NCBI GenBank assembly: GCA_009746045.1
Contig: RPFO01000026.1
Coordinates: 2,723,065-2,787,064, forward strand
Direction: 5' to 3'
From: Mesostigma viride
Lineage: Eukaryota; Streptophyta; Mesostigmatophyceae; Mesostigmatales; Mesostigmataceae
DNA length: 64,000 bases
Shown here: piece after piece, positions 8,246-62,880 of the stretch
Numbering within the stretch: the first letter of the stretch is position 1
Layout: each line of letters begins with the position of its first letter
Program-made: the position numbers and the translations under genes
The notes under the pieces: model-generated
Told to the model about the DNA's origin: nothing
The model's input: only the letters and a program-made list of their open reading frames with translations
The model's database searches: none

Positions 8246-8371
8246 CTTTGATTATAAGTAAATGAATAGGAATCTAACTGAAAGCAACAAAGAAAAAGGA
8301 CAAGGCCTAATTCAAGGCAAGGGAAGAAAAGAAAAGCTTTTAATGTCCTACAAAAGGAAAAACAATTTAAA

Positions 8372-26440: not shown

Positions 26441-27780
26441 GTGATTCCATGGAACTATCCATTATAGCCTGAATGTGAATGGGCTTAAAGAGTTCCAGGG
26501 AATGCAAGATAAGGGGTGGACCAGCCTGCAGTAACTTGTTGATAGCCTTGTTGTGGCCTACCTGCATGAGAACTGCATCATCAACCCTGCTGACTACTGT
26601 ACTGCTAGGTGTGGTGCACAAGTAGAACACAACCACCCCAGCTTGCCCCTAATGGTGGGACAGTCACAAGGTTTGATTTTAGTCTGCAGCACTTCCTTAC
26701 AACTGTGCATGTATAATCTGAGGGCGAGTACATTGCACAGACCCACTGATCTGCTTGCTTATGAAGCTGCAACATTGTGCCACAGAACTTAATAGCAATG
26801 GTGCCCAGCTCTAGCTGCTTGCCAATCTCAAAAGGCTTAGACACGTTGGCGATAAAAGCATCCACAGCCTGCCTAGGCCCATGGCAATAAGCTGATCATC
26901 CCCATGCCACACAAACATGATCATGCCATGAGGGTGAGGGACAACAAAGAAGCAAGGGTCTATGTCATCATACCGAGCACCTAGCTTCTCAAACACAGCT
27001 TGAGCTGACATTCTAAAAATTCTAGAAGCAGATTGCAGACCTTCCACTCCTATGTTGGCTTTCAGAAAGGGTTGTGGAATATCCTTAGACCATACCTTAG
27101 GTGTGTTGACCATGCACATACACCTTACCATGCCGAACTTGCTCAGCTATTTCAGGTGAACCTTTCAGAAAGGCACGTTTAATGTCAGTGGCTTTGCACA
27201 CATAATCATCACCTTGATTGATGTGCCCTACTAGAAAAATAGACAGCAAAATTCGGTACCGGCGCGAATTTTTTGGCGCCAAAAAATTCGGAACCGACCG
27301 GTCCCCTTAAGAGAAGTTTGCTGAATGCCAGGGGTATACAAGTCTGCCTCTGTCAAATCAGTGGATCCCTTATAAACTCAGTCACACAAGGCCTAGCATG
27401 GAAAATGACAGAGCCATCTGCTGCTTGCTTGTGCTTGCACACGTCTGAGGTGCTTGCTCCCGTTGGGCTTACGCTCTAAGGGAGTGACTGGAGGTCACTG
27501 TGTGGGTGGGACTAGTACGTGGATCTGGAACCACCCATTCATCCATAGCCTTTCTAAAAGCTTCAACCCACTTAGTGAAACCTTCCTGAGTTTGACAGTC
27601 CTGGACAATCTGCTCATAGGAGAGGGGAGACATTTTTGCAACATCATATTTTCCCAATCCAAATGCTTTGGGGTGCAGTTTCTGACTGTGCACCAAATCT
27701 GCCACACGTGGCTCGTGCCCAGGTGCATACTTTGGTGCAACAAATTTGACAGTGGCTGGCTGTGTGTCAACCAAAGTCTG
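26427..27780 (-). pseudogene. A1 reverse transcriptase and start of RNase H (frameshifted)
   Basis: RT blocks spread over three or more frames: LVHSQKLHPKAFGLGKYDVA; VCKATDIKRAFLKGSPEIAE (first catalytic Asp); NIGVEGLQSASRIFRMSAQA; DDIDPCFFVVPHPHG; FVWHGDDQLI with the HGDD box at 26906-26895. The RNase H start LFKPIHIQAIMDSSMES follows. Frameshifts and the foldback at 27253-27305 inactivate it. Compared with A2 the order and blocks are the same. Confidence 0.8.
27253..27305. repeat. About 53-bp foldback insertion in A1 RT
   Basis: Interrupts the frame between the codons for QTSLK and ILLS, which are contiguous in A2. Its core, 27265-27290, is a perfect 26-bp palindrome centred on GGCGCC; the flanks (GGTACCGGCG on the left, GACCGGTCCCC on the right) extend the inverted repeat imperfectly. 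No duplication longer than 1-2 bp is evident. Confidence 0.65.
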
Positions 27781-27879
27781 GAGTGGTATACCTGAAAATG
27801 ATCAAGTGACACCCCACCCAGGCCCTGTACCGCAAGCCTATCACAAGAGATGGTGACACCTGGGTAAGAAATAAATGGA

Positions 27880-30015: not shown

Positions 30016-30052
30016 AGGACGCTTGTCCTTGGCCTTCCTGGCCTTACCCTCC

Positions 30053-32667
30053 TCATCTGATTCCTCCCCCCGGGTCCGCTTGACAGCAGGGGGGAAGAGG
30101 TAGAGGGGGGGGGGCTGAGTCCTGACACAGTGGACCCAGGGCTAGCTTAACATAATCGAGAGCCTCTTTCATCGACTCCCAATGGGTGGCCAAGCCTGTG
30201 GTGATCATGGCAAAGGTGTTACGATCAAGGTTAAGCTTCTCGAGCAGGGAATGAACAAGCCACTTGTGATCTAGCTTGCTAACCTCGGGGTGGGCTTTCA
30301 CTGCAAGTTCCCACTTCTTGATCTCTGCTACGTAGTTCTGAGTTTCTACCTTATAGGTTTTCACCCAGTTAAACGCAGAGTACATGTCAACAGTGGTGGG
30401 AGCAGAGTCAGCAGACAGCAGGTCATGCAAATCACGCAGAAAATTCTACCATGGCTCCCTATACCCTGTGTATCCTGCCACCTGGGGTACCTTCGCTGAT
30501 ATATGGACACCAAGTGCTGGATGGAGGGATTGGATTGGTGGAAGACATCACCCTGCATGAGTGCCCCAAACCAGTATTTGATATTCAGCTCCTCCCTAGC
30601 TAGCTTGAGAGAAAGGAGAAGCTGAGCACCCTGCTGCCTAGTGTACCCTTCTGGCAGCCCCCTCACCATAATCCTGTCAATTGGCCTGTGCTCGTTATAA
30701 ACTGGCCAATCCTGAGAGGGTGAAGAGGGAGAGGGAGAAGAAGACCTGCCTGGGGATGTAGCAGCATTGGCAGTGGTTGGGATGCTAGGTGAGACCTGTG
30801 AGAGCCTGCTACGCGTGGCTGGCTGCGCTGGGGTGTTAGGTGCCTGCACAACATGTGCTGCATGGTGAAGATGGTATGTCCATGCCCCCCTGCACACCCT
30901 GACTCTGTGCCTGCCTCTTGCGTGCCCTAGCTGCCTCCCATTGCTCGAAGGTAGGGGTGAGAGAAACATCACTATCCTCACTGCTAGATGAGCTTGACTG
31001 CTGCGCGTCCCCCCCCCGCTGGCTACCTGTCTGTACACGCAACCAAGTGGGGAGATACATACCTGCCTCCTCCATGCACACCCGGTGCAACGTCTGCACC
31101 ATCTCCACCATCGTGGCCAGATTCACCCTGATCTTCTTGCCTCGCAGCAAGGTCTGCAGGGCGGGAAGAAGTGCCTCGCACATCCTCCTGGTCATCGGCT
31201 CGATCGAGGGTTGATCGAGCAGATGATAGATGACCGCACACAACAAGCTGGCGTGTTCAGCCAACCTGCCGTCCAGCCTTTCGCTGGCCACCCCTTGGAT
31301 ACCCTGGGCGCAGCGCTGGACTGCGCGCCAAAGGGCTGGCTCACGGAGCGAGACGACGTCATCCCCAGGGATGCGTGCCTCGGCTGTCTCCATTACCACG
31401 TCCTCCTCCCCTGGGGGAGATGGACGATCCCTTGCCACAGCCTGGGCCGTGGCAGGTCCCTTGCCCCTGCCGGGGGCTTGGGACTGCGATGGGGGTGCCG
31501 AAGCACCCGCCTTCGCGGGGGGGTGGGTGTTGATGGCGTCGGTGTTGTCGGCTGATGCCGACGGTTCCGACTCAGCGGCGGGTGTGCCGTGGGGAGGCGG
31601 CTGGCGCTTGCCCTCCGCCCGCCTGGGAGTCGCTGCCGCTGTCGCTGTCGCTGTCACTGCCACCGCTGGGGTAGACGGGGCGCCCACCGGTGCTGCTGTC
31701 TTGGATGCCGCGGCCGGCAGGGTCGCTGCCGACGCCGGTGGCGACACAGTTGCAGCCGCCTGCTGCGACGCAGTCGACGTCGCTGCCGAACCAGGGGATG
31801 CCGTCGCAGGTCCCCAGCCAACTGGCACGACAGGTGGCATCCTTGGCAGCTCCTCTGCCGGCCTGGGTGGCTTGGCCATGCACCACCGTGGCCGCTGCCA
31901 CCTGGCGAGCCTCCGAATACATGTCTTGAGCAGGTACACCTTGTCTCACCGCCAAGTAGTACAGCCGGATCAGAATCGCAACCCAGGTGGACATGCGAAA
32001 AGCGGCGATGGACGTCCTCCAGGAGCTCCGACGCCACCGCCTGAACCACGAACTTGGTCAAGGCGATGCCGTCAGGGAGGGTACTCTGCTGGCGCAGACA
32101 CTAGCCGTCGAAAGGCAAAAAGTCTGGTACATTACGTACCGGGATCTTAAAGGGGATCTGGCCCCAACCGTTAACATAGACCTCACCTGCATCCTGGGAC
32201 GCAGGTGTCGGGTTCGCGCCGAGGCTAATGCCTGCCAGCGCCCTCCCGACAGAGGTGTTGCCGGACGATGACCTCGTCTGGCAGGAGGTCACCTCTCTCC
32301 TAGGAGAGGGTGAAGCCTCCCCCTCCTCCGAAGAGGAGGAATCCTCTTCCACCTGTCGCCCTGGGGCGGGTGGCATGAGGTTCGGGGCAACCTCGGACTC
32401 GTTGCGAGTCCCGGTGCCCCTGTTCCCCTGGGGGGCAGACGCCTCGGCAGCGACAGCTTCACGCTGCCGGCGAGGGGTGTCCGCCACCACCATGCGATAG
32501 GTGACATGGTCGTCACGCTGACGTGGTGGGGAACTGCGAGGAGAAGTTCTCCTCTGAGACGCCGTAAACGGCAGTCTCGCGGTGATGGGGGGCTTCCGGT
32601 TAGCAGGAGGCCGACCCCGACCGTTTCCTGCCCCATCCCGCTGGGCGCTGGGGGTTGGGGCGGACAT
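30053..32667 (-). pseudogene. A1 Gag region (several frames)
   Basis: Starts at an ATG at 32667 (MSAPTPSAQRDG), about 45 bp after the 5' LTR and probable primer-site region. Segments: 32667-32101 (basic, Ser-rich, with SSSSEEGEASPSP); 31939-30836 (Ala/Thr/Pro-rich, then a helical part around LLDQPSIEPMTRRMCEALLP); 31038-30361 (RPIDRIMVRGLPEGYTRQQG, IQHLVSIYQRRY); 30430-30053 (FNWVKTYKVETQNYVAEIKK). The last two align by eye with A2 segments LVFPGLPEGHTQDEARE, IQQLVQLYQKR and FQWIEAYKVNKRDYV, so they are the capsid-like core. Frameshifts break it. Confidence 0.65.
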
Positions 32668-32712
32668 TGTTGTTTTTCGCATCCGAATTCTTCGGCACCA
32701 TTTCACAATCCA

Positions 32713-33124
32713 AGTTAGATATAGAAAGACGTTGGAGACGTTGGGGGAACTCAGTGTGAGACTGTGATATGCAGTAACGCCAGGGATCGGGCGTTCCTTG
32801 TCATTTTTCACTCCATATGTGGGCACACCGGCATTATATGTCGTGACACATCACTCACACGAGTTCCCTAGGACAACTGGACTACGCTAAATTGTCCGCC
32901 ACGTGTCCAGGCTCTAGAGGCTTCTAGACCTGTAGCAACGTTACTACGCACAACGTCCACTAGGCTAGTTGCTAGCTACGTAACTTGCGTACACGTGTGT
33001 GCGTCGCGCCACAACCGGCGCTCGGCACTGTTATTCAGTCTCCGCCAGAATAACTCCGGTCACATTGTGTGTTCCCCCTGTGTGGCTCCGGCCACAAGTC
33101 AGCCTCGAGGTATCTCAGCTAACT
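32713..33124 (-). repeat. A1 5' LTR
   Basis: 412 bp, homologous throughout to 23649-24056. On the minus strand it ends CTAACT and is followed by TGGATTGTGAAATGG, a TGG-starting sequence in the place of a primer-binding site. I could not match it to a tRNA. Confidence 0.88.
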
Positions 33125-37227: not shown

Positions 37228-37382
37228 TAACCCCATAATGCACCTTAGTGGTGTTGAGTTTTTTTTCACGTCAAGAACTTAATGAAATAAAGCTCATGAT
37301 TTTTCTCGTGTTACACTCTTGGTGAGAAATTTCTCACCATGTTGACTTGTGATTTTTCTCGTGTTATACTCTTGGTGAGAAA

Positions 37383-38095
37383 TGTAACAAGCAAAATTGA
37401 CTTTGTTGTTACATCCTTTGTTTTGTGAATGTTTGACTTTTATTCGAGGACTTTTGGATCAGTATTGGGAAAGTTATGAGGTTTCCAAGAAGGCGGTACT
37501 TGAAACTTGTACTTTGTCAGCCGACTGTTAGAAGCCCTTATTGGTCGTGGCCTGATCCACGTGGGGTTATAGTTTGTTGGTCGGTACTACCAAGTCTAAA
37601 ATGTTCCTTTGGGACTTTGGTGCTTACTACAGATTCAGGATCTCATGTACAGATTCTGCCAGGCTGTTGGCGTTGTTGTTCTGTTTTGTGTGACTAGGAT
37701 GGATACGAGGATCTTGTTTAGAATTCCATGATTTTGATTGGTTCTCTTTGAGGCTAAGGTTGAGGCATGCTCGACAAGCACGTCGATATCAAGGACGTGG
37801 GGTCGCCATTGTTGCAACGTTGGTTTTGATTCATCATGGTATAAAAAAGCTTGTCTTTGTTGTCCATTCATAAGAGCCCCTTGGCTATAGACGTCCTTCA
37901 GTTCCACAGAGGTCGTCTATACACGAGCTTGTCTTTGTGTCTACAAGGGGTTGTGATTCCCTAAATCACGTGCTGTGGAATTTCCATCTCAACGTTGCTC
38001 GGATACTTGAAGTTCTGCAACTCAGAAAGCAACCCAGGTAAAAGATCTTTCATATTGGACTGTGGATGATGCTGATGATCATTTTTAGTCGTTAC
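37383..38095 (+). repeat. G2 5' LTR
   Basis: 713 bp, TG...CA termini with 6-bp inverted repeat TGTAAC/GTTACA. TATAAAA at 37840 is a candidate TATA box. It lies directly after the AGAAA duplication within the CACTA right subterminal region. Confidence 0.88.
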
Positions 38096-38113
38096 ATTGG
38101 TATCGGAGGATCT
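38096..38113 (+). other. G2 primer-binding site
   Basis: TTGGTATCGGAGGATCTC follows the LTR. It is close to the complement of the 3' end of initiator methionine tRNA used by many LTR retrotransposons (TGGTATCAGAGC), with one clear change, A to G. Confidence 0.65.
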
Positions 38114-43450: not shown

Positions 43451-44264
43451 GTGGCCTATGTGGATCATAGGAACTGCACGGGCCCCTGTGACCACTATGA
43501 GACTTTGGCCAAGGCGTTGGCTGCACTCAACAGAGAGGAGGGGGAGGTGAGCTCTGAAGGCTATGTGGAGGAGGTCCTATCTCAGCTGCACACAAGCCTG
43601 TATGAGAGTGGCTCCCCTTTTTGTGGCTCATCTGCTGCATAGGATGTATGCATTGTCACCAGGACCTGAGATTGACATGAGGCCTGCTGAGGGGCCGGTC
43701 ATGCTGGCAGCCTTACCTGAGGCCTTGAAGGAGGCATTTACTCAGTTGCAGCCAGTGAGTATGGGAGAGGCTTCCTACATGGAGCTGTTGGAGTTTTCAG
43801 TTCAGAAGGGTGACTTTGATTTGGTTCCTTCTTCCTCCAGCTCTGCCAGAAGGTGTTTTCCTTTGGAGACTTCTAACCTCTTTTGCAATCCAGGGTTGCC
43901 CAAGTACACTGTGGAACTTAAGGTCCGTCAGACGCCACTAAGGGTGCTGGTGCCTCTGATAGGTGCTAAGTGGTCGGTGGTCAAGACCTTTCTGCAGTTC
44001 TGGTGGGCGTACAGATCATGGGTGAGCAGGCACAAGACGTCCTCTACTTGGGTGATGGACCCTGAGAGTCAGTCTGTGGTGCTCCTCTCCTATCCAGGGG
44101 CATGCCTTCGCTATGCTGCCCAGATGGTGGCAGGAGCTGCTGAGACTTGCGTGGTGTTGCAGGTCAGCAGGAACTGGCCAGAGTTGGCCCACATGGTGGA
44201 GCAGTTTCCCATGTGTGGACTCAAGGGCAAGGATGGCCTGAATGGGGATTGGTATAGCCTGTGA
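43451..44264 (+). CDS. G2 3' ORF of unknown function (one frameshift)
   Basis: Two overlapping frames (43451-43642 and 43563-44264) appear to be one coding region of about 270 codons with a shift near 43620. Segments include LAKALAALNREEGEVSSEGY, LPEALKEAFTQLQPVSMGEA, LPKYTVELKVRQTPLRVLVP, KTFLQFWWAYRSWVSRHKTS and LRYAAQMVAGAAETCVVLQV. I recognise no domain. It ends about 360 bp before the 3' LTR, where LTR elements sometimes carry extra or captured genes. It is better preserved than everything upstream, which suggests later acquisition or constraint. Confidence 0.5.
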
Positions 44265-44626
44265 GGAACAGGGCTGAGAAGGAAAGGGGGCTTTGGATTG
44301 TGGTGTGAGGGGGGGATTCCAGGATGGATGATGGGGGGGCTCCATTCCAGTTCTGATGTTTCAGTCCAGAGTTCCAGAATTCCAGAATGATGACGGGATG
44401 ACTTCCTGTATTGCTGTGTTTATCTGGGCTTGTAGTGGATAAGGATGTGACTTGTCTTCTTTAAGCACCTGTGACTAGATGTTTATGAGATAGGAGGCCC
44501 TGGCTTCAGGGATGTAAAAACCCACCTGCTTTTCCCAAGAGATGGTGGATTTCTGTTCAGTGTCACTCCTCCTTAAAGAGTAGTTGATTTTGGGGAACTG
44601 GTGGTTCCAGTCTTGAGGGGGAGATA

Positions 44627-45340
44627 TGTAACAAGCAAAATTGACTTTGTTGTTACATCCTTTGTTTTGTGAATGTTTGACTTTTATTCGAGGACTTTTG
44701 GATCAGTATTGGGAAAGTTATGAGGTTTCCAAGAAGGCGGTACTTGAAACTTGTACTTTGTCAGCCGACTGTTAGAAGCCCTTATTGGTCGTGGCCTGAT
44801 CCACGTGGGGTTATAGTTTGTTGGTCGGTACTACCAAGTCTTAAATGTTCCTTTGGGACTTTGGTGCTTACTACAGATTCAGGATCTCATGTACAGATTC
44901 TGCCAGGCTGTTGGCGTTGTTGTTCTGTTTTGTGTGACTAGGATGGATACGAGGATCTTGTTTAGAATTCCATGATTTTGATTGGTTCTCTTCAGGCTAA
45001 GGTTGAGGCATGCTCGACAAGCACGTCGATATCAAGGACGTGGGGTCGCCATTGTTGCAACGTTGGTTTTGATTCATCATGGTATAATAAAGCTTGTCTT
45101 TGTTGTCCATTCATAAGAGCCCCTTGGCTATAGACGTCCTTCAGTTCCACAGAGGTCGTCTATACACGAGCTTGTCTTTGTGTCTACAAGGGGTTGTGAT
45201 TCCCTAAATCACGCGCTGTGGAATTTCCATCTCAACGTTGCTCGGATACTTGAAGTTCTGCAACTCAAGAAAGCAACCCAGGTAAAAGATCTTTCATATT
45301 GGACTGTGGATGATGCTGATGATCATTTTTAGTCGTTACA
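44627..45340 (+). repeat. G2 3' LTR
   Basis: 714 bp, matching 37383-38095 closely. It is followed by AGAAA and then the CACTA right subterminal array. Confidence 0.88.
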
Positions 45341-46989: not shown

Positions 46990-49370
46990 ACTGGCTTGCT
47001 CACCAGCTGCACTTAGCCATGGGTCATGAAACAGTGGCTGAGGATCTGGCCAAACGCCTGGGGGGTAGTAGCATGGAAAAAACACTCAGGAATGCAGTAA
47101 AACTGGCTAGACAACACTGTCAAGAATGTCAGTTTAACAGCCCCAAACCTCAAAAATGGCATACTGCAACTCCTTCCACCACTAGAGGCATGCATGATAG
47201 TGGGGGATGTAATGCACATCAACAAGGATGCCCAACCCTACCTGATCCTACTAAAAGACTCATGGTCCAGGTTCACAGTCATGGAACCACTACCTGGCAT
47301 GTCAGCAGGGCAACTGCGTGTTGCACTCATGATTCATGCTTTACCCAGATTCTATCCAGTTGACAGAATTTTGCTTGATCAACAATTTTCTTGTCTGACT
47401 GACCTGAAAGGGTGTGAAGCGATAGAGATTGCTGGGCTGGAAGATCATGAAGGTCAGGGGGTCATTGAAAGAACCATCAGATCTGTCAAAACCCTACTAG
47501 CTAAAAGTCCCTCCAAGGATGCTACTTCAGGGGTCTATTGTGACAGGGCACTCTGGTGTCATGAAATGTGCACAACCCTAAACATGAGACCTGTCCTGCA
47601 CATGCCAAGTGGGGTGAGGTAATCCCAGCAGGACTGCAGGCAGGCGTATATCCCCCAGAGGTGATAGCACCGACTGTACAACACTGCACGTGCACAAACC
47701 TCAGCAAAACTGGCAGAAAAAGATAAAACCCATCCCAGGCCAGTATTCCAAAAAGGTGATCACGTCCTCTATTACAAGGAAAACAGCTTTGGTAAGGTTG
47801 GAACTTGGCTAGGTCCATGCAGTTACCATCCGTGGATTTACCAAAAATGGCAAGACAGTGGATGTCAAGCACAATAATATCAATGGAAAGCGTCACAGGG
47901 TGAGCTGTCATAGAAGATTAAGAAGTATCATTCTCCCATGGCAGACGTGCCTGGGGAAGAGTCTTTAAGCATGGACTCACCGCTACTTCTATCTGGCGAC
48001 TCCAGCATGACCAGCAGTACCAATGAGCCACCTTCCACTGCTGTTGACAGCACCACAGCACCCTCTGTGAACCCTTCCACCCTCCGTGAAGCCGGCCGGG
48101 CCCACTTCACAACCTAGCTGGGGATTGCTTAACCAGGCATGAGGTAGCTGGTCTAGAAGCATATCAGACCCAAGGCAACAACCCGTCTGCCAAGCCTCCC
48201 GCTCTGAGGTCACGATCAATTGGCAGTCGCCTTGCAAGCATTACACAGGTCACATAAGCAACAAGCTGCTGTGGCCGAAGGGCTGGCAAAAGTCTCAGCT
48301 GTGTGCACTATAGTCAGGACCCCTGGACCCTGGCAATAGACACTCAGGCACAGGTCACATGTGATCAGTGCAGAAGCCATCCCTGGTCTTGAGATTGCAG
48401 TCTGTTGCTCTGATTGCACCTTCTCCTTGGGCACGGGTGCAGGATTTCTTAGGCCAAAGCTCACTGGATGTAGTGGGACAAGTGTTGCTCCCTAGTCCCT
48501 ATTATACTTGGTATTCAGACGCCCTTCCAGGTGGTGGAAGGGTATTCTGGTAACACCTTGTTGGGGGAACCTTTTGTATCCTATCCTAGCTGGGGTGCTT
48601 ATCTCAGTCAGCTAATGAGCTCAGTATCACAGGGGTGCCTGCAGTTCCTCTGAATCCCTCTCTCCAGTATTGTCCCTGGTATGGATGCTGTCATCAAAGC
48701 ATGCAGTAAACACTCAATATGCACCACTGAGGGGAGATCCCTGATGTGGACAATTAGTTATAGTGCAAGGCATGCAGAATGTGGACAAGTCAGAGAAAAC
48801 CGATTCCTCCATCCCTCAGCCTTTGGGCTGGGTAAGTGGGACATAGCCATGCACTCACCCCAACAAATCTCCCACGTCATACAAGAATGCAAAACATAAA
48901 AAGGGTTCACCAAGTGGCTGTTGGCCATTGTCCACCAAGCCAGGCAGGAGTGGGTCCTGCCCAACCCCAAAACCCCTCAATATAAACCTCCTGTCACCCC
49001 TAAGTCATGGGAAGTGCCAGAGGGAGCAAAGAAGCTCAGATTAAAATTTTTTCTCAAACAAAAACCACAAAAAGTGGGCTCCCCCATTTTCCATGCCAGA
49101 CCATGTGTCACAGAATTAAAGAAGGGGACATCCACACTGCCAAAAGGGGAAACCTACACACCTGGGCTGCAACAAACCTCACTCAGGATCATGCTGTCCC
49201 TGTTCCTCCACAACCTCAATGCAGGCCAAGACTTTGTCTGCAAAGCCACTGATATAAAAAGGGCCTTCCTCAGGGGGGACTCAGAAAAGACTGAATCTGT
49301 GTGGAAAGGGAAGGTGTACGTGGTAGACACCCCAGCTGTGTGGAAACCTTACATTGATGAGCCCCACCTT
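46990..49370 (+). pseudogene. A3 integrase, protease-like and RT start (frameshifted)
   Basis: Integrase zinc domain LAHQLHLAMGHETVAED...ARQHCQECQ, core with IVGDVMH (first Asp), RILLDQQFSC (second Asp) and GQGVIERTIR (Glu), again 29 residues apart. The C-terminal barrel lies around 47740-47920 in shifted frames. Protease-like LAIDTQAQV (Asp codon 48339-48341). Linker with ENRFLHPSAFGLGKWDIA, then RT FHARPCVTELKKG, VCKATDIKRAFLRGD and VWKPYIDEP to the A2 insertion. At least five frame changes. Confidence 0.78.
49366..49370. repeat. A2 target-site duplication, left copy
   Basis: ACCTT, repeated at 56876-56880 directly after the A2 3' LTR. Confidence 0.85.
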
Positions 49371-49777
49371 AGTTATAGTCTAAGTCTCCCGCCTGTAGCC
49401 TAAGTGGACACGTGCCAGCACCGCCGGCGCCCAATTGGGTACTGGGACGGTGCTGGACTAGAGCAGTCGTGGCATGGACACGTGGCTAGACTCAGTATGT
49501 GATGAGCCGGTACTACCTCAGTACCGGGACTGTAGTTGTCATGTTGTTAGGACTGACTAGATCAGGTTGTAACTGAGTAACTGATAGGCCAGTCCGTCCA
49601 GGATCATGCAGTAAGTTAGGCTTAACTTACGCAAAGTCTGGTCAGCCGCAAGTGACGGCTGACCAGCGGTATATGTGCCATTCTATCCTAATGCCAAGGT
49701 GTCTCGTCGTCTCCACACTGGCCATTTGGCATCGTCTGTGTGCACTGAGTTTCCCAAGCTCTCAGCCTGCACTAACT
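49371..49777 (+). repeat. A2 5' LTR
   Basis: 407 bp, AGTTATAGTC...GCACTAACT. It differs from the 3' LTR mainly by small indels. It is followed by TGCATTAAAAAGC in the primer-site position, which resembles no tRNA I can name. Confidence 0.88.
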
Positions 49778-49873
49778 TGCATTAAAAAGCACTCCGTGAG
49801 GTGTGCATTTTTGACGACGAGCAAACAAGCGTTATTCACAACCCGGTTTTCTACACCCAATTTTTTTTTTTAA

Positions 49874-52640
49874 TGTCTTCTAACCCAAACGCTAACAAGG
49901 GCAAGGCTCCGATGTATCCCAGGAGCCGGTCCAGCTCTCCGACGTCCTCGTCGTCGGGGACGTCAGACTCTGAGCTCGCCGCTCAGGCAGAGATCGAGCG
50001 GGCGGCTCGGAGCTTCAATCAGTCCATGGAGGCTGACCCGTCGACGTCGGGGACGTCCTCCTCGGGCCACTGGTCCGAGGGTTCTTACAGCAGCGTTGTG
50101 CTGCGAGTGCCCCTGTATCCGCAGGGGAGGGGATCCACGCCCGTGTGGTCAACAGGCCGAGGGGTCCTCCTTACGCCCCGACAGCTGCAGCGGCGGGGGC
50201 GGGACCTTCGGCACCTCCTGCAGAGGAGGAGTCTATGGAGCTGTATGGGCTTCAGCCTGGTTCCTCAGCCGAGGAGCAGGACGACGCCCGTTCGCGGCAG
50301 GTGGCTGCGGATGAAGGCTTCGCTCGGGCGATGGCTGAGCGCGAGGAGCGGGAGCTTCGGCGCGCGGACACGCACGCTCGTGCTCGCGCCCAGCAGCGGG
50401 CGGATGCTGAGAACGTGCGTCGGGCGTTGTTTCGCAGTGATGTGGCTTCTGGCGAGGAGCAGTTTGAGGTGATGCGTCGGGGGGACCTTGCATGTTTTAA
50501 AAGTCTGCGTCGGTCTCGTGAGCCGAAGGTACACCTAGGTGTGCATCAGGAGTCGGAGTTCTCTTTGACAGGTCCGTCGGGGGCATCTGCTGAGGACGAG
50601 ATCCTCATGACCCCGGCAATGGTGGCGCGGGAGCGTGAGGCGCAGAAGCGCATGGAGACATTCACAGCCGACAAGCTCCGTCGGCAGGCGCGGAGGGCCG
50701 CGGCAGAGGCGAAGAAGGAGCGCGAGCAGGCGGAGCGGGAGAGGCAGGTTGCGCTGGCGGAGCGCATCAAGCTCAAAATGTCGATCACCCAGGTGCGCCG
50801 GGACCGGATGGTCCGCGAACTCAGGGTATGGAAAAAGGCGCAGGCGATGAAGCTGCAGCGTATGGCTGAGATGGAGGCGCCTGGCAGGCAGGAGGCGCAG
50901 GAGCGTTACCGACGCTCGCTGGCACGGTGGGAAGCCAATGTGGGCAGGATGGAGGAGCGTATCCTGAAGCAGCGACGACGCATGATCAAGCATGCACGTA
51001 AGACAGCGGTGAGGGGACCGCTTGGTGAAGCGGTGAGAGCCGAGTTTGGCCTTGGGCCGGATGAGGATGTTTCTGCAAGCCAAATGTTTTATTATTTGTC
51101 GCAACCCAAGAAGACCATCACCAACCGTGATGGCACTGCCGCACGCACGCGTGTTTACAGGCAGCCTGGTGAAGCCGGACCGTCTAACCTGTCCAACAGG
51201 GAGGACATCATCGATCAGCTTCAGCTGGCGCAAGCCATGCTGGAAGCGATACCCGCTGTCTCCCGAGGCAGCAGGGAGTTGGCCGACACGGTGGCCAGGC
51301 TGGTGGCATCGCTGAAGCCGGCCAAGCGCAGGGCGCAGGCAGAGGCATGCGCACCCAGCCAAAGCGGAGGAGGGACGAGGGGGCGGATGGCGGGAGAGGG
51401 GGGGCAACCAGGGCGGGGTAGGACACGGCACCCAGGAGTCTGCACCAACACGGCACGAGGGCGGGGAGCGGCAGCAGCAGCAGCAGCAACAGCAACAGCA
51501 GCAGCAGCAGCAGCCGCCTGCAGGAACGACACAACCTCCAACATGGCCTTGTGTAGGCCCAGGTTTGATCCAAAAAAGAAAGAGGACAAGCTAGTGTTTC
51601 CGGGTTTGCCAGAGGGCCATACCCAGGACGAAGCTAGGGAGTGGTTGTTTAAGTTGTCACATGCATATGCTAGTGACAATGTCCGTGATTGGTTTGCCTC
51701 CTACGTGCGTCCACACCCATCCATCAATCTGCCAAGCCTATCCAGCAGTTGGTACAATTGTACCAAAAGCGTGCCAGCAGCGGGGTAGACGTGGCAGAAA
51801 ATGTGTTGTGGGCGCAGTTCATGGTTGATCTTAGGGCACTTGTTACCACGGGGGAGCACTTAGAAGTGCTTAAGGGCTTCCAGTGGATAGAGGCCTATAA
51901 GGTCAATAAGCGTGACTATGTGAGTGACAACAAAAAGTATGTCATGTACATAGAGGGGATGAGGAGCTGAAGAAGCTCAATGCCAAGTACCTAGTACACC
52001 TATGGCTACAAAAGGCAGAACTGGACCCTACCACCCTGTCAGTAATCCTGGCAGGTCTGAAGGATAAGTGGGAGGACTTCAGGAAGGCAATGGCCTATGT
52101 GCAGCAATGCCTAGAGCCGTTTGCTGCTGCAGCCAAGGATGTAAAGGTGAAGCAGGTAAAGGGGGAGGAAGCCTCAGGTACGGGGCTCTCCAAGAAGCAG
52201 ATGCAGTCGCTGGTGGCCCAGGTAAAGGCGGTAATGGGGGGGATAAAAACAAAAACAACAAAAGTGGGGGAGGTGGAAACAAGGGGGGGGAAGAATAACA
52301 ATAACAAAAACAGAAAACAAAGTGGGGGAGCTAGCAAGCCAGGGGTGCTAAGCCAGCAGGGGGGGACAAGAGGTTGCCTCATGACCCCACCAAACATTGC
52401 ACTAGGTGCCTTTGTAAGGGGCACCTAAAAGATGATTGCTGGAAGGGCAAACCCGACTATGGTTCTGACGTTGATGTTTGTCCTGGATGCTGGAAAACAC
52501 GTCACCCCATTGCAGCAGGAGCGCGCTGCACGGCTCCCAGGCACAACAAGACACGCCAGGGCGCTACAACCGCGCGGGGGCGGCAGACCAGGGAGACTCC
52601 TGTAAGCTACCCTCACCATTTTTCACAAATGGTTTCCTGT
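49874..52640 (+). pseudogene. A2 Gag with coiled coil and zinc knuckle (frameshifted)
   Basis: Likely start ATG 49874 (MSSNPNANKGKAPMYP), rich in Ser. A frameshift near 50130-50160 leads to the frame 50145-51788: a long charged helical region (REREAQKRMETFTADKLRRQ onward, Lys/Arg/Glu/Ala heptad-like, about 51 residues into the coiled part) and a CAG-encoded Ala/Gln run at 51470-51515. Then LVFPGLPEGHTQDEAREWLF and, after another shift, QLVQLYQKRASSGVDVAENV and FQWIEAYKVNKRDYVSDNKK form the capsid-like core. The end carries CTRCLCKGHLKDDC (about 52397-52438) and VCPGCWKTRHPIAAGARC. The latter resembles the second Cys/His block in A4. Confidence 0.7.
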
Positions 52641-53104
52641 TACCTTCTGTCTGCCAAGTGTTGCCTGAGTGTGATGATGTGGATTGGGAAGTGGCATATG
52701 ACATGACACTGTCACACATGATGCGTGACCCCACCATAGCTTCCCTTAGTGCAGCAGCAGAAAAGGTAATCACGTATGGTGCTCTAGCAGAGCAACTGCA
52801 CAAGGTTATGGGCCATGAGGCTGTGGCTGAAAGGCTAGCCAATAAAATACAAGGCCATGATCTGGAACAGATGTGCAGGCACGTACGTAAGCACTGTGAG
52901 CAATGTCAGCTATATGCTCCTAAGCCCAGAAAATGGCATGTGGCCACACCACCACTGGCTAGAGGCAAACTGGTTGGGGATGTTATACACGTGGTGAAGG
53001 ACACGGTATACTACCTAGTCATAAAGGATGCCTGGTCAAGGTTTGTGGTAGTGGAGCCCTGCCTGGGATGGATAAAGAGCAGCTGCACAGAGCTTTACAG
53101 ATAG
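52478..53104 (+). pseudogene. A2 integrase N-terminal part
   Basis: Contains the HHCC domain (LHKVMGHEAVAERL...VRKHCEQCQ) and the first catalytic Asp in VGDVIHVVK (codon 52979-52981). The frame is lost near 53060 by loss of one base within the block that reads EPLPGMDK in A1, and integrase resumes in the frame of the next ORF. The zinc knuckle and second Cys/His block overlap its start in another frame. Confidence 0.8.
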
Positions 53105-55176
53105 CCTTGGCACGTTTTCACCCCATTGAAAAAGTAATGCTGGATCAGCAGTTTCTCTGCATCCAGGACAGGAATGACCTGCCCAAGATAGAAGTGTCTG
53201 GGGCTCAAGATCATGAACGTCAGGGGTTGGTAGAACGTACCATGAGAGCCATCAGGGATGTGATAAGAAAAATGCCATCCAGGTTGGCTGACTCTGGTAG
53301 CTATGCTGACAGGGCATCTTGGGCAGCAGGGGTGACTACCCAGCTAAACGCCAAACCAATAATGTCCTCACCTTTTGGGGAAATCACCCCAACTGGCCTT
53401 CAGTCAGGCAGCTATGCTTCAGAGGTACACACTCACTACAACACACAAAGGCAGCACTTAGCCAAGTTGCTGGCAAAGAAAGACAAAAATAATGCCAGGC
53501 CTGTGTTTGAAGTGGGGGACCATGTGTTGTTTTTCAGAGAGGGTGACAGAGGAAGAGCACACTCTGCCAGATGGCACGGTCCAGCTGTAGTCACCAAAAT
53601 TCATGAAGAAGGGACTGCAGTCACTATACAACATGACAGAGAGCGTGTGGTCAGCAAGCATAGACTCAAGCTTTATTACCCACCACTGGCAGACGTGTCA
53701 GGGGTAGAATTCTTGGACATGGATTCAGAGCAGGAGTCTGGTGGATTGATCTCACCCAATGAATTGGCTAAGGACGTCATTGATGCAAGCACTAGTACCA
53801 CAGTAGAAGCTCCTGTGTTCCTCAGTAGTGCAGCCCCACTACAACCCAATAGTCCACCTGGGCAGGAGGACGGTGCACAGGGTGAGCAGCAGGTAGCACC
53901 TCCCTCACACCTGGAGGAGTCACAAAATAGAGCAGATCCTGTCGTTCCCAGGAAGTCATTTGCTGAGATTCTTAAGGCCTTGCACAAGGCACACAACACT
54001 AAAGCAGTTGTGGCAACAGGTACAGCACAGGTCAATGCTGTAGGGGATGCAGGTCAAGATCCTAGTATTTTGGCTGTAGACACCCAAGCACAGGTGAGTA
54101 TCATCAGTGCAGCAGCTGTATCTGGTCTGAAAATGAAGGCCTCACCATGGGCTAGAGTGTCAGATTTTTCAGGCAAAACCAAAATGCAGGTCAAAGGTCA
54201 GGTGAGCATTCAAATCTTGGGTATGCCCACTCCATTTCAGGTGGTTGAGGGTTACTCAGGGAATGCCCTGTTAGGGGAACCTTTTGTATCTTACCCTGGT
54301 GTTGTCATCTCAGCTGGGAGGTTGAGTGTGGCAGGGGTAGGACAGGTGCCTCTAGATCATTTTAAAATCCCTTTGAGCCAGATTAGCACTGGGTTGGATG
54401 CTGCCATCAATGCAGTTAAGCCCAAGTACCTCCCAGGTCAGGAACCGTGTGTGGAGGACCTCATACACTCTCAAAAGCTACACCCTTCAGCGTTTGGGCT
54501 TGGTAGATGGGATGTTGCATCCATGTCTCCCCTGTCCTATGATGATATTGTACGGGACTGCCAGACGCAGATTGGGTTTCTTAAGTGGCTGGAGGCTTTT
54601 ACCAAAGCCAGGGAGGAGTGGGTTGTTCCAGATGCACGTAGTCCCACACACACACCACCTGTGACTCCTCTTGATGCTATGCCAGCTGGAGCCAAGAAGC
54701 TAAGGTTAAAGTTTGTGTGCAAGCATAAACCTCAGGCTGATGGGGGACCACCCATTTTCCATGCTAGGCCATGTGTCACTGAGTTCAGGGGCTCTACAGA
54801 GCTGACAGAGGCTGAGCTTTATACTCCTGGTATTCAGCAAACGTCTCTCAAGGTGTTGCTTTCCTTGTTTTTGCATCAGCTTAATACAGGGAAGGATTAT
54901 GTGTGTAAAGCCACAGATATCAAAAGAGCCTTTCTAAAGGGGGACCCTGCCATAGCACAGCAGGTCTGGAGAGGTCAGGTATACGTGGTGAATACTCCTA
55001 AGGTGTGGCACAGGGATATTGTTCAACCCTTGTTGAGGCCAAACCTGGGGGTTGAAGGGTTGCAGTCAGCTCCAAAAATTTTTAGGCTGTCTGCACAGGA
55101 GGTATTCATGAAGCTAGGGGCCACCTATGATGACATTGACCCTTGCTGTTTGTCATCCCACACCCTGATGGAATGA
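53068..55176 (+). CDS. A2 integrase core, protease-like domain and RT
   Basis: A 702-codon ORF in one frame, direct evidence that protease lies between integrase and RT. Integrase: VMLDQQFLCI (Asp codon 53143-53145) and RQGLVERTMR (Glu 53233-53235), 29 residues apart; C-terminal barrel at VFEVGDHVLFFREGDRGRAH. Protease-like: LAVDTQAQVSIISA (Asp 54079-54081), ARVSDFSGKTKMQVKGQVSI, FQVVEGYSGNALLGEPFVSY. RT: KLRLKFVCKHKP, FHARPCVTEFRGSTE, YTPGIQQTSLKVLL, VCKATDIKRAFLKGD, VEGLQSAPKIFRLS. A one-base shift near 55145 moves the catalytic HGDD box into the next frame. Confidence 0.92.
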   Translation: MDKEQLHRALQIALARFHPIEKVMLDQQFLCIQDRNDLPKIEVSGAQDHERQGLVERTMRAIRDVIRKMPSRLADSGSYADRASWAAGVTTQLNAKPIMSSPFGEITPTGLQSGSYASEVHTHYNTQRQHLAKLLAKKDKNNARPVFEVGDHVLFFREGDRGRAHSARWHGPAVVTKIHEEGTAVTIQHDRERVVSKHRLKLYYPPLADVSGVEFLDMDSEQESGGLISPNELAKDVIDASTSTTVEAPVFLSSAAPLQPNSPPGQEDGAQGEQQVAPPSHLEESQNRADPVVPRKSFAEILKALHKAHNTKAVVATGTAQVNAVGDAGQDPSILAVDTQAQVSIISAAAVSGLKMKASPWARVSDFSGKTKMQVKGQVSIQILGMPTPFQVVEGYSGNALLGEPFVSYPGVVISAGRLSVAGVGQVPLDHFKIPLSQISTGLDAAINAVKPKYLPGQEPCVEDLIHSQKLHPSAFGLGRWDVASMSPLSYDDIVRDCQTQIGFLKWLEAFTKAREEWVVPDARSPTHTPPVTPLDAMPAGAKKLRLKFVCKHKPQADGGPPIFHARPCVTEFRGSTELTEAELYTPGIQQTSLKVLLSLFLHQLNTGKDYVCKATDIKRAFLKGDPAIAQQVWRGQVYVVNTPKVWHRDIVQPLLRPNLGVEGLQSAPKIFRLSAQEVFMKLGATYDDIDPCCLSSHTLME

Positions 55177-56105
55177 TGATGTTTGTCTGGCATGGGGATG
55201 ATCAGTTAATCTCAGGTCCTAGAGCTGCAGTGGATGCTTTCATAGCTCAGGTGTCTGCCAGTTTTGAGATTGGCAAGCAGCTAGAGCTGGGCAAGGAGCC
55301 AGTCAAGTTCTGTGGCATGATGCTTGAGTTGCTGCAGCAGCAGGGCAGCTGGGTTTGTTCCATGCAGGCCTCTGCTGAATACATTAAGTCTTGTCTGGAT
55401 GTCCTGCCTGTTCACATCACCCCTGACATGTGCCCTACCATTAGAGGCAAGCTTGGTTGGCTATGTGCTACATGTGCACCCCACCTGGCTTTTGTGAGCA
55501 GGGTAGATGATGAGGTACTACAGGAGGTAGGAGCACGGGCAATCAAGCAGTTGTTGCATGATGGTCCACCTTTGATGCTTCACTCACTGGACCTGTTTAC
55601 TCCCATTCACATCACGTGCATGATGGATAGTTCAATGGAGTCCAGGGTAGTTACCAAGGTTCAAGCCAGAGAGGCTGGATTGTTTTTCCTGCATAACCAA
55701 GGTGGGAAGAAGTCACTAGTCTCCTGGTTCAGTAGATTGCACAAGAGGAAAGCTGTGAGTAGCAATGTAGCTGAATGCAGGGCTGTGGTATCTTCTGTCT
55801 TGCATGCAAGGTATCTCAATCACTTGCTGGTCTGGCTTCAACACCAGGCTGGTAGCTCTGCAGGAGTGAAAGCACATTTGCTGACTGACTCTCAATCTAT
55901 CATCTCTTTCCTTGCCAATCCTTTGGCTGTACACTCGGACCTGGATTGGATTGTGCTAAAACAGGAATGCAAGTACCTGGAGTCTAAAGCCCACGTCAGG
56001 GACAAAGACAATGCTGCAGATGCACTGACCAAGGTGCCACAAGCAGCAGGACCACAATACCAGGTCTTGTATGGGTTGATGAACCCTGGTTACAGTCTGA
56101 AGTGA
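55143..56105 (+). CDS. A2 RT C-terminal part and RNase H
   Basis: Continues RT: LFVIPHPDGMMMFVWHGDDQ, with the HGDD box at 55191-55202, then KFCGMMLELLQQQGSWVCSM. RNase H: HITCMMDSSMESRVV (Asp), NVAECRAVVSSVLHARYLN (Glu), HLLTDSQSIISFLANP (Asp), KDNAADALTKV (final Asp). The end is YSLK and stop. The reading frame properly begins upstream in RT; the track start at 55143 is the shift point. AATAAAA at 56244 lies in the short 3' noncoding region. Confidence 0.9.
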   Translation: MLFVIPHPDGMMMFVWHGDDQLISGPRAAVDAFIAQVSASFEIGKQLELGKEPVKFCGMMLELLQQQGSWVCSMQASAEYIKSCLDVLPVHITPDMCPTIRGKLGWLCATCAPHLAFVSRVDDEVLQEVGARAIKQLLHDGPPLMLHSLDLFTPIHITCMMDSSMESRVVTKVQAREAGLFFLHNQGGKKSLVSWFSRLHKRKAVSSNVAECRAVVSSVLHARYLNHLLVWLQHQAGSSAGVKAHLLTDSQSIISFLANPLAVHSDLDWIVLKQECKYLESKAHVRDKDNAADALTKVPQAAGPQYQVLYGLMNPGYSLK

Positions 56106-56487
56106 CTGGCACATTGTACATGTTAGCCCATGACCCCCTGCCTAATACTGCAGCTGAAAGGCTGCAGTGGCAGCTGGGTAGTTTTCTGACAGTGAGAAGC
56201 ACTGGTCTAGAAAGTTGGGACATGATGAATGTGTTATTTATTGAATAAAATTTTGTGAGACACTTGTTTGGATGACCATGACATGCTGGGGCCTGAGCAC
56301 CCATCTCACTCAGTTAAGAAACCATGCTTGAGACATGGGGCCTTTTTAATGCATCTCTTGTACATGTGTGAGGTGACCTTTGGGTCCTAGTAGGTTATCT
56401 GACAGTTTTTTAAGGCATTGGGAATGGCTGCGTCCATTTAATGGCTATGTGTGTTTCTGTTGAAACCCAAAGAAAACTTAAAGTGGG
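56106..56487 (+). other. A2 3' noncoding region
   Basis: About 380 bp with no ORF. It contains attgaataaaatt (56241-56253) and ends in the purine-rich tract before the 3' LTR. No T-arm-like hairpin is present, unlike subfamily B. Confidence 0.6.
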
Positions 56488-56875
56488 AGTTAGTCTAAGT
56501 CTCCCGCCTGTAGCCTAAGTGGACACGTGCCAGCACCGCCGGCGCCCAATTGGGTACTGGGACGGTGCTGGACTAGAGCAGTCGTGGCATGGACACGTGG
56601 CTAGACTCAGTATGTGATGAGCCGGTACCTCAGTACCGGGACTGTAGTTGTCATGTTAGGACTGACTAGATCAGGTTGTAACTGATAGGCTAGTCCGTCC
56701 AGGATCAGTAAGTTATGCTTAACTTACGCAAAGTCTGGTCAGCCGCAAGTGACGGCTGACCAGCGGTATATGTGCCATTCTATCCTAATGCCAAGGTGCC
56801 CTCGTCGTCTCCACACTGGCCATTTGGCATCGTCTGTGTGCACTGAGTTTCCCAAGCTCTCAGCCTGCACTAACT
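56488..56875 (+). repeat. A2 3' LTR
   Basis: 388 bp, AGTTAGTCTAAG...GCACTAACT, followed by ACCTT (56876-56880). A3 RT resumes directly after it. Confidence 0.88.
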
Positions 56876-58037
56876 ACCTTATCATCAACATTGGGGTGGA
56901 AGGGCTTGTCAGTGCCCCGCGGCCCAAAATTTTCAGGGACTGACAGCAGAGGAGGTATTCAGAAAGCTCAAGGCCACGTATGATGACCTGGAGTCACCCA
57001 TGCTTTTTTGTTGTACCCACCCCCTCTGGACTGCTGTTCTTTGTGTGGCATGGAGATGACCAACTCATTTGTGGGCCTACACAAATGAGTGGAGCAAAAA
57101 AAATGGTGTAGAGCTGAGGTGGAAAAATTTATTCAGCAGGTCCAGGAATCATATGATCGAGATTGGCAAGCAGGTGGAATTCACCACAACCCCTATCCAG
57201 TTTTGTGGCATCATGTTGCAGCTGCACAAGCAGCAGGATCAGTGGGTCTGCTCTCTCTCCCCTCCTGCAGACTATATTCAAGACTGTCTAGATCTGCTGC
57301 AACACAACCACCTCCCCATGCACATGTGTGCCACTGTTCAAGGCAAACTGGGGTGCATGGTGGTCAGCCATCTGTGGGGCTCCCTTATAGCTGTCATAAG
57401 CAGGGTCACCCATGATGTTTTAGTCAAAATCAAATGCAGTCAAATCAGGAAGTTGGTTCAAGATTGCCCTCCCCTCATCCTCCATGGTCTGAATCTGATG
57501 GAAGACATTCACATCCACAGCGTCATGGACAGCTCCATGGAGAGCAGAAGAATCAATCAGATGGGGGCTAGGGAATCAGGGCTGTTTTTTCTCACCAACA
57601 GGTCAGATTACATGTCCCTTATACCTCCTGGTACAGCAGACTGCACCGCAGAAAACCTGGCAGCAGCAACTCAGCTGAATCATTGTCGTGCTGTGCATGG
57701 TGTCTGCTGCATTGCATGCTCGCTCCCTGCAACACATGCTCACCTGGTTACAAACCCAGGCAGGCAGCACATGCAATGTCATCTCACATCTCTATACTGA
57801 CAGCTATTCTGTGATCAGTTTTCTAACCAATAAATCTGTTTCTGCTGCTGTCCACACTGATCTGGATTGGGTGATCCTCAAACAGGATCGAGGCCACCTA
57901 CTTTTCCAGCTGGACTCATGTGGAATTGAGATGAGGAAAACCCGGCAGACGCTCTAACCAAGCTGCGGGACTCGGCTGGCCCACAATACCAGCTACTATT
58001 TGACAACATGAATCCATATGGTATCAGAGTCAGTGTA
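56876..58037 (+). pseudogene. A3 RT C-terminal part and RNase H (frameshifted)
   Basis: Resumes after A2: IINIGVEGLVSAPRPKIFR, then LLFFVWHGDDQLICGP (HGDD 57049-57060), IGKQVEFTTTPIQFCGIMLQ, DIHIHSVMDSSMESRRI (first RNase H Asp), ARESGLFFLTN, HLYTDSYSVISFL (Asp) and, near the end, a degenerate NPADALTK equivalent around 57935-57965. Several frame changes. Confidence 0.78.
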
Positions 58038-58430
58038 TGAATAAATTAATGGTATGGCTCTAGCTCAGTACATGACAGCCACACCCCCTCAACCACAGCG
58101 ATAGCTGCTGGGCGCCTTGTAAAATTCAACACGTTTGCTGTGGGGTGTGGGTGCTGAACAGTGTCATTTTCATATCCGTTTTCAGCTTGAGGGCACAAGC
58201 CTTATGCTCCATACACTTTATTTAATGTGTACTACCATAACTGGCCAAGCCAGCCAGCTGTGCACACCTTATTTAATGTGCAATCCAACACCTGGCCAGA
58301 ACAGCCAGCTGTAACCAACCTGGCCCAACCAGCCATGTTTATTTTGTATACCCCTAATCAACTTAAAAATAATAACAACAATGTTGGGGGTGCAGACCTG
58401 CATAATCAATAAAGAATAAAACAATACTGG
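58038..58430 (+). other. A3 3' noncoding region
   Basis: Contains imperfect tandem repeats of a segment with taatgtg...ggccaagccagccagctg (58213-58345) and ends aataaagaataaaacaatactgg, the purine/A-rich tract before the LTR. Confidence 0.55.
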
Positions 58431-58916
58431 AGTTAGTCTCCATGCTTTGCTGCAGACTAAGTCTCAAAGGCATTGTGAATACAACGTATGAATAAGCCTT
58501 GTAAACCTACGTTGGTATGTGAATATAAATACCACGTGGGCTATGCAGATAGGACTGCTAGTCGAGTCACATACATTTCCCTAGATAGGTACTTTGGGTA
58601 CTGGGGTACGTGACAGATGTCAGTACCCAGTATACGTAGTGTCCTGCCATTGGACGGTACTAGAGTATCCTAGATAGGGAACGTACTGCAGAGTGGATTG
58701 ATCTGTGCTCACACGATGCTGTGACTAGACTGCTACCGGCCTGTCATCGTGCGGCCTCGGGCCAACGGTCTGCACCCAACGGTCACTGGCGGCGCAGCCA
58801 TTGAGAGGAACGTTGATAAAGGGTAAACCTTTTTTCTAATGAGCAAGCAATTCATTGCCAACAATATTCAGTGCTCTCAAGCATTATACTACGTCGCTCG
58901 TTTCTCTTTCCTAACT
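58431..58916 (+). repeat. A3 3' LTR
   Basis: 486 bp, AGTTAGTCTCC...TTTCCTAACT. It shares about 395 bp with the A4 LTR at 20535-20930. TATAAATA at 58514 is a candidate TATA box. The following GGTAG (58917-58921) should be the target duplication; its left copy is lost. Confidence 0.82.
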
Positions 58917-61605: not shown

Positions 61606-61725
61606 ACGCGCCTCACCGTGTGGCTCGATGGGCGCGTGTTGGAGCAGGTCCAAGGGATCAGCTCTCACCCCAACCCCTGTTGATTGGTCCTCAGCCCAGC
61701 GTGACGCTGCACAGAGTTTGATAGG

Positions 61726-62880
61726 GTGCAACATAGGGCGGTCACCTACTCGTGGGATGCCGGGGTCCTCCACAAAATGCTCGGCAAGCGCAAAGTGGTG
61801 GTGCCGCCGCCTCACAAGCGGGTCGCCGTCGTCCAGCAAGTCCATGAGCGGTATGGCCACCTGGGTGGTAACCGCACTTTGGCGCTAGTGCGCGCCTCTT
61901 ATTGGTGGAACGGCATGCGTGCCACAGTCGCGCAGGTCGTCGCTAGCTGCGCGCAGTGTGCCCGGGTGAAGCCCAGGTTCAATGTGGACCACGATGCGAA
62001 AGAATTGATGCGCCTTCCCATCAGAGGGCTCTTCTACCGCTGGCACGTAGACCTGTGTGGGCCCTTTGATGAAAGTGCAGATGGCCACAAGTATGTCATG
62101 GTGTGTGTCGAAAGTTTTAGCAAGTGGGTCGAGCTCATCCCCATGGCTGACAAGCAGGCCGCCACAACCGCCAAGCACTTCGCCGACATCATCGCCAGGT
62201 TTGGCGCCCCCACGGAGGTGGTCACCGACCAGGGCGGGGAGTTTCGGGGGGAATTTCAGGAATTGTTGGATGCATGTCTCATTGATCACCGTCGCACTTC
62301 TCGGGAGCATCCTTAGGCCAATGGTTTGGCTGAGCGATTGGTGCAGACTGTCAAGCAGGCTTTGCGCAAGTGGAGCCTGCAGTCAGCATCATTCACTATG
62401 TGGGATCGTGAACTGGCGTGGATACTAGCCATGGGTTACCGGATGTCACCCCAGGAGTCGCTCGCCTGTTTCTCCCCGTATTTCCTGTTGTTTGGGCGCG
62501 CACCCTTACTCCCCACGGAGGCGCAGAGTGCACACCCCACCCCTATGGCGTTTGACAACGCCAGTCAGTTTCTGGCTGAGCCGCTGAGGTGACCGCACGG
62601 GCGGCTACTTTCCGCAAGGTTATGCCCATCGCCATGAACAACTTGTTCATCGCCCAGCACCGAGATACCCTGCGCTACGCTCAGCGCCGGGGGGGCGCTT
62701 ACATGGCCCGTCACGGCCGTCAGCTGCATTTTCGTCCGGGGCAGTTCGTATTTCTCCGCACGCAGCTGACCGACACTCTTGACGCCGGTGACTGCGGGGC
62801 CGACCATCTTGCGGATCGCCGCCATCAAGCCATCTGGGGTCGCCATTTTGGAGGGCGTCGACGGCAGTCGCACCACAGAT
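61726..62880 (+). pseudogene. G3 gypsy integrase (premature stop and frameshifts)
   Basis: HHCC zinc domain HERYGHLGGNRTLAL...CAQCARVK; core with WHVDLCGPF (Asp 62050-62052), VTDQGGEFRGEF (Asp 62227-62229) and GLAERLVQTVKQ (Glu 62332-62334), 34 residues apart as in ordinary gypsy integrases. A TAG at 62314-62316 replaces the Gln of the usual HPQANG block. After a shift near 62590, QHRDTLRYAQRRGG and FRPGQFVFLR form the GPY/F-side barrel, then AGPTILRIAAIKPSGVAILE in another frame. The +1/-1 changes and the stop make it inactive. Confidence 0.85.

Follow-up and report, generated by a model that had tools for sequence, protein, structure and literature searches.

This analysis concerns long terminal repeat (LTR) retrotransposons of the streptophyte alga Mesostigma viride, five copies of which (A1, A2, A3, B1 and B2) lie in a 64,000-nucleotide stretch of contig RPFO01000026.1 (positions 2,723,065 to 2,787,064; the whole stretch is referred to below as the window). 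The Pol polyprotein of these elements carries its domains in an altered order, with integrase (INT) followed by a retropepsin-like domain (PR) and then by reverse transcriptase (RT) and RNase H (RH), and copies in the window and across the genome confirm that this order is real. The explanation that we favour, with confidence somewhat above even, is a Copia-type lineage, much amplified in Mesostigma viride, in which the domain between INT and RT is the element's own protease. That the lineage is distinct and unusual among Copia-type elements, as the initial annotation of the window had suggested, is well supported, the order being common to three subfamilies.

Order of the Pol domains

In A2 (49371-56875, forward strand) the integrase (52730-53691; HHCC, D, D and E residues and a C-terminal GPA-type domain, in two overlapping frames) precedes the retropepsin-like domain (54061-54429, VDTQAQVSII...ALLGEPF), which is followed by RT, with the motif HGDD, and RNase H (54481-56102, two frames). 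An open frame of 737 codons runs from integrase through the retropepsin-like domain into RT. The open reading frame (ORF) at 53068-55176, which has 702 codons and zero internal stops when read from the sequence, had initially been described as integrase, retropepsin-like domain and RT; this is borne out with one correction, namely that it holds the C-terminal part of integrase, VDTQAQVSII...NALLGEPF and the start only of RT, the rest of RT and RNase H lying in a shifted frame at 55140-56105. The minus-strand copy A1 has, as had also been proposed, a zinc knuckle (NC), integrase and protease-like sequence in a single open frame of 753 codons (30141-27883), which takes in the first half of the retropepsin-like domain (VDTQAQVSII); the domain as a whole occupies 27726-28098 in two frames, and a broken RT and RNase H follow at 25135-27711. 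Another ORF inside the A1 RNase H (25681-26454, minus strand) presumably resembles the end of a LINE-type protein.

The remaining three copies had been described as fitting the same order, and for two of them this held. A3 is older than A2 and was split when A2 inserted into it, so that it spans 46992-49370 and 56876-58916 on the forward strand; it has integrase (46992-47874, HHCC and core), then LAIDTQAQVT...LLGEPF (48315-48655) and then RT, whose first part (48792-49370) is cut by the A2 insertion and resumes at 56876-58016, all in broken frames. B2 (11088-18442, forward strand) has integrase (13561-14340, its N-terminal zinc domain not seen), then VDTNAEVSVM...IILGQNF (14585-14950), then RT with HGDD and RNase H (14951-16594), and an open frame of 693 codons is shared by the last three of these domains. 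B1 begins outside the window edge, with VDTNSQVSIL...AILGQNF (301-549) directly ahead of RT with HGDD and RNase H (555-2119, cut by an unrelated LTR element and resuming at 4832-5023, forward strand); its integrase would fall beyond the window, and B1 therefore informs on the adjacency of PR and RT only. The order INT-PR-RT is thus found in all four window copies that have the three domains and PR-RT in all five, and tblastn among the copies gives collinear matches for integrase, the retropepsin-like domain, RT and RNase H.

The genome of Mesostigma viride (439,911,974 bases, 2243 contigs) was searched with single proteins, and 63 places were scored for A2 (from 7837 first-look candidates), 64 for B2 (8659) and 70 for the database relative P0002 (8090); because the scored places are a part of the first-look candidates, the copy counts are lower bounds. 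Fifty-three stretches were cut out, comprising 50 loci (the best matches, 30 of the 63 for A2 and 20 of the 64 for B2, with the window's own A2 and B2 counted among them as L001 and L031) and three regions. The domain is covered by 51 of the 53, and in all 51 every marker found fits the order NC, INT, PR, RT: eight have all four markers, 31 have INT-PR-RT, five NC-INT-PR, five INT-PR, one PR-RT and one PR alone. The last of these, L051, has a variant integrase that the search pattern missed, and its frame reads HHCC, integrase, domain and RT; it represents a third subfamily, C, with INT-PR-RT in one frame. Genome copies of the A2 family have frames of 1250-1395 codons ordered NC-INT-PR-RT (7 of the 12 longest listed), and in those of the B family the frames reach 1198 codons and take in INT-PR-RT-RH.

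A caution is that the genome copies are mostly near-identical and so stand for a small number of independent events. What can be counted as independent are the subfamilies, A (A1, A2 and A3, 45-65% alike by domain), B (B1 and B2, 46-54%) and C (L051), so that a changed order first attributed to two diverged subfamilies is now seen in three. Several nested or frameshifted window copies might have invited the idea that the order was produced by the nesting of insertions or by faulty assembly; it is refuted by dispersed copies on many contigs whose unbroken frames run through the same order, and we give it practically no weight.

The domain between integrase and reverse transcriptase

The sequence marks the domain as a diverged retropepsin, through a relationship that is weak but repeated. 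The A2 domain has three Pfam matches only, gag-asp_proteas (E 0.01), Peptidase_A2_2 (E 0.02) and Asp_protease_2 (E 0.15), and the whole A2 ORF matches the first two of these (E 0.1 and 0.23); in a cut of 90 amino acids of the C domain, gag-asp_proteas is again the first Pfam match (E 0.12). None of ten shuffled or reversed versions of the domain matched an aspartic-protease family. A profile of the domain aligned with Ddi1 over about 70 columns, Asp on Asp, with a score of 22.33, which none of 300 column shuffles reached (best 20.02), and with C added to the profile the score was 22.55, again with none of 300 column shuffles as high (best 19.89). The reversed profile scored 8.88 and an integrase profile 15.06, and in a Ddi1 scan of 155 sequence windows over 16 ORFs the seven best were this domain in A1 and A2. 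What the domain shares with the Ddi1 retropepsin domain is the VDTxAQxxIxS core, the later G and [IL][IL]G positions and the alignment of D to D; Ddi1, however, is cellular and reads DTG or DSG, whereas here DTQ or DTN stands within a Pol polyprotein.

A number of results weigh against the assignment. No Pfam score for the domain attains the curated cut-off, and there is no aspartic-protease Pfam match in B1, B2, either piece of A1, a cut of 130 amino acids of the C domain or the pieces from P0002 and P0008. Against Ddi1 the B1 and B2 windows score low (14.4 and 15.6), the hhalign probability is just 7-9% and the margin above the best shuffle is modest. PDB sequence searches and NCBIfam returned no retropepsin for the domain, nor did PHROGs, where the matches were at chance level only (best E 0.012). 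Two AlphaFold models were poor (pLDDT 39.7 and 41.6), and Foldseek with the second of them gave no retropepsin among the best 50 of 111 matches; as the models are uninformative, the fold assignment comes down to the weak sequence-profile matches. All of this would be expected if the domain were some other beta-rich linker that resembles a retropepsin by chance. We nevertheless consider that improbable, given that gag-asp_proteas is the top Pfam match in two subfamilies and is lost in the shuffled controls, and that the Ddi1 alignment is in register and twice exceeded every shuffle.

Whether a diverged retropepsin of this kind still cleaves is a separate matter. The Gly of DTG is nearly invariant among active retropepsins. 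It is replaced in all five window copies and in 51 of 51 genome stretches, by Q in A and C (DTQ) and by N in B (DTN), and a motif that reads DTQ or DTN in every copy makes catalysis doubtful, though the domain is conserved. Between A1 and A2 the domain is 64-65% identical (pN 0.23-0.26) as against 48-49% for integrase (pN 0.38), while RNase H, at 68% over 167 residues, lies above the domain; between B1 and B2 the figures are 53% for the domain and 54% for RT, and synonymous sites are saturated between the copies compared. Selection thus seems to maintain the domain, whether for its structure or for cleavage.

No protease was recognised upstream of integrase in the A1, A2 or L051 frame, in keeping with the earlier statement that in A1 nothing protease-like lies between knuckle and integrase. 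When the gag-to-integrase stretches were scanned in three frames for D[TSN]G, A2 and A1 had two matches each and B2 had none; one A2 match is a DSG of the integrase itself and the others fall in low-complexity or stop-ridden frames, and they were rejected as proteases. The integrase DSG follows the catalytic E in the A2 family, where it is the sole D[TSN]G of the long frame (30 of the 53 stretches), and it is also present in A1 and absent from A3, B and C. An LDTGAV in L051, 86 residues ahead of HHCC, was likewise rejected, with a score against Ddi1 of 15.5, on another stretch, compared with 18.6 for the domain after the integrase.

It can be envisioned that the domain is a pseudoprotease, a retropepsin relative no longer able to cleave and retained either for dimerisation or to space integrase from RT, with Pol and Gag left uncut or cut by a host enzyme. 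Such a loss would fit the DTQ or DTN found in every copy of three subfamilies in a domain that is otherwise conserved, and it would fit the two B copies read upstream, which show no recognisable Gag to cut. Yet the 50 searched loci and L051 all retain Asp, Thr and a small residue in fourth place, a count that is partly by construction, the loci being close to the queries and the pattern requiring those residues; the same residues are retained in the five diverged window copies, and the stretches read contained no second recognisable protease. We regard a pseudoprotease as rather unlikely and a moved, working protease as plausible. Such a protease, as the element's own, would pair with a second polyprotein copy at particle assembly and would free integrase from RT-RNase H from its position in mid-Pol, its catalytic Asp being that of the altered DT[QN] loop.

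Gag, LTRs and neighbouring elements

In subfamily A the zinc knuckle lies ahead of integrase in the same frame. A2 has a gag region at 49786-52425, spread over several frames and in part like the A1 gag (tblastn E 1e-8), followed by a zinc knuckle, CTRCLCKGHLKDDC, and a second Cys/His cluster (52398-52500). With knuckle and Pol in one frame, the Gag-to-Pol ratio would need some means other than a frame shift at that junction, and splicing, internal initiation or cleavage might set it. An apparent intron, the gag deletion in the copy represented by L016 and L052, was rejected, there being by eye no GT-AG at the join; this copy is a deletion derivative without mid-gag and most of RNase H.

The B frames of up to 1198 codons start before a degenerate HHCC, with no knuckle seen, and the L051 frame likewise shows no recognisable knuckle. 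The upstream sides of two B copies were read, and no gag-like ORF was found in the 2.1 kb ending at the start of one long B frame (L033, L053), nor in the matching part of B2 (11720-13552). B elements may be Pol-only.

Both LTRs are present in three window elements. Those of A2 are at 49371-49777 (5', AGTTA...TAACT) and 56488-56875 (3', AGTTAG...TAACT), with the target duplication ACCTT at 49366-49370 and again after the 3' LTR. Those of A1 (23649-33124, minus strand) are at 32713-33124 (5') and 23649-24056 (3'), both with GCATG, and those of B2 are at 11088-11719 (5', AGTTAA...TTAACT) and 17372-18442 (3', with an inserted stretch within), both with ACTCT. A fourth element, the C1513 copy (L052/L016), has the 5-bp duplication CACTA, and in all four elements with both LTRs that were checked the ends are AGTTA...TAACT, not TG...CA; the A3 3' LTR (58431-58916, AGTTAG...TAACT) has the same ends. 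TG...CA ends are usual in Copia LTRs without being strictly defining. The part of a catalogue of non-TGCA LTR ends available to us holds no AG...CT (PMC5659011), and the Troyka LTR retrotransposons are likewise a lineage marked by non-TG...CA ends, though with CG...CG ends, 3-bp duplications and a position near gypsy, in contrast to the AG...CT ends and 5-bp duplications seen here (PMC12440569). The right flanks of A2 (56876 on) and B2 (18443 on) both run ATCATCA after or overlapping the duplication, by chance or through a target preference.

Other elements share the window. The one nested in the B1 RNase H (2120-4831) is an unrelated LTR element of 2.7 kb, which ends in TG...CA and has the duplication ATGGG; its two LTRs, each of 616 bp, are identical. 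Another LTR pair (37374-38096 and 44618-45340, 98.9% identical) encloses an ORF without a Pfam match (43551-44264). A Gypsy-type integrase with H2C2 and rve domains lies at 61705-62316, and a different element contributes a long gag-like ORF that includes a zinc knuckle at 6314-8251 on the minus strand. A remnant of a further A-type element at 20535-22690 has TAACT, the end of an LTR, at 20930 and a CPGC-containing knuckle at 22562.

Relatives and comparison with known elements

The RT and RNase H look Copia-type, with integrase upstream of RT. RVT_2 matches B1 (E 5.9e-4) and B2 (E 0.022), both short of the Pfam cut-off; it has no match to the RT of A2 or C, which counts against a Copia affinity. 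PF07727 is precomputed for the relatives P0004, P0007 and P0011. The RT motif is HGDD in all five window copies (1413, 15695, 26909 on the minus strand, about 55188-55191, and 57046), in 40 of the 40 genome stretches whose frame has HGDD or YxDD (13 of the 53 have neither) and in six of six database relatives covering the site; P0011 has YVDD. Among PDB matches to the integrase profile, 35 of 36 are integrases (E 0.03-0.86), and rve matches A3 (E 0.0025) and B2 (E 0.2), with none for A1 or A2. HHCC is present in A1, A2 and A3, the second D and the E are a short 29 residues apart in A1 and B2 by hand count, and L051 has D where the catalytic E is expected.

Protein searches beyond the genome, three in number and scoring only candidates that share words with the query, found relatives only among Mesostigma viride EukProt models, two entries of the dinoflagellate Prorocentrum lima and two further contigs (P0003 and P0007), with P0011 as a distant Copia-type protein; none were found among the viral contigs or phages searched. 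One Mesostigma viride model is 98% identical to B2 over 119 amino acids, and another, P0002, has 100% identical genome copies. The Prorocentrum lima EukProt entries (P0006, P0008) include a protein identical to the B1 RT at 313 of 314 residues, for which cross-contamination is the likeliest explanation and recent transfer a less likely alternative. The Mesostigma viride genome has been reported to contain 60,339 LTR retroelements making up 27.9% of the sequence, and in the corresponding main text the word Copia does not occur (PMC6947507). A literature search of open-licence texts, mostly titles and the starts of abstracts, recognised no account of an INT-PR-RT order or of HGDD.

The order of Pol domains is a main criterion by which LTR retrotransposons are classed. 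If a successful lineage combines a new order with departures at DTG, YxDD and TG...CA, then such hallmarks must be less constant than is usually assumed. A combination of this kind would also help explain the poor recognition of the lineage by family libraries, and the elements allow it to be tested directly if a retropepsin can function without the Gly of DTG. A bolder proposal, which we hold to be doubtful, is a separate superfamily-level lineage combining a Copia-like RT-RNase H, a differently placed integrase, a working DT[QN] retropepsin, a working HGDD RT, AG...CT ends and very many copies in an algal genome, with B as a Pol-only form using the Gag of others.

A history compatible with the favoured explanation reverses the direction of the move. 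PR stands directly ahead of RT in Ty3/gypsy, BEL and retroviruses; it adjoins RT here as well, and the integrase may therefore be what moved. In such a history the protease stayed in place and integrase was set before a PR-RT-RH core of the kind found in Ty3/gypsy, BEL and retroviruses. The C-terminus of the integrase would agree, reading GPA or GPG, which we take to be somewhat like a GPF/Y-type end, and so would a weak match of B2 to Agenet; the integrase spacing and the LTR ends are, moreover, unlike those usual in Copia. The Copia-type appearance of RT and RNase H speaks against it, and we consider this history possible, somewhat short of an even chance.

Against known systems, the Copia-type lineage proposed here shares with Ty1/Copia (Pseudoviridae) its LTRs, a 5-bp target duplication, an RVT_2-type RT followed directly by RNase H, and an integrase upstream of RT. 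It differs in having DT[QN], HGDD and AG...CT where Copia has D[TS]G, YxDD and TG...CA, and above all in the place of the PR-like domain, which comes after INT here and before it in Copia. The Pol domains of Pseudoviridae are given as PR, INT and RT-RH (PMC8515867). Gmr1 is another known case of changed pol order (PMC2774666), but there it is a Ty3/gypsy lineage whose integrase sits where Copia has it, whereas the elements described here join a Copia-type RT to a PR-like domain placed between INT and RT.

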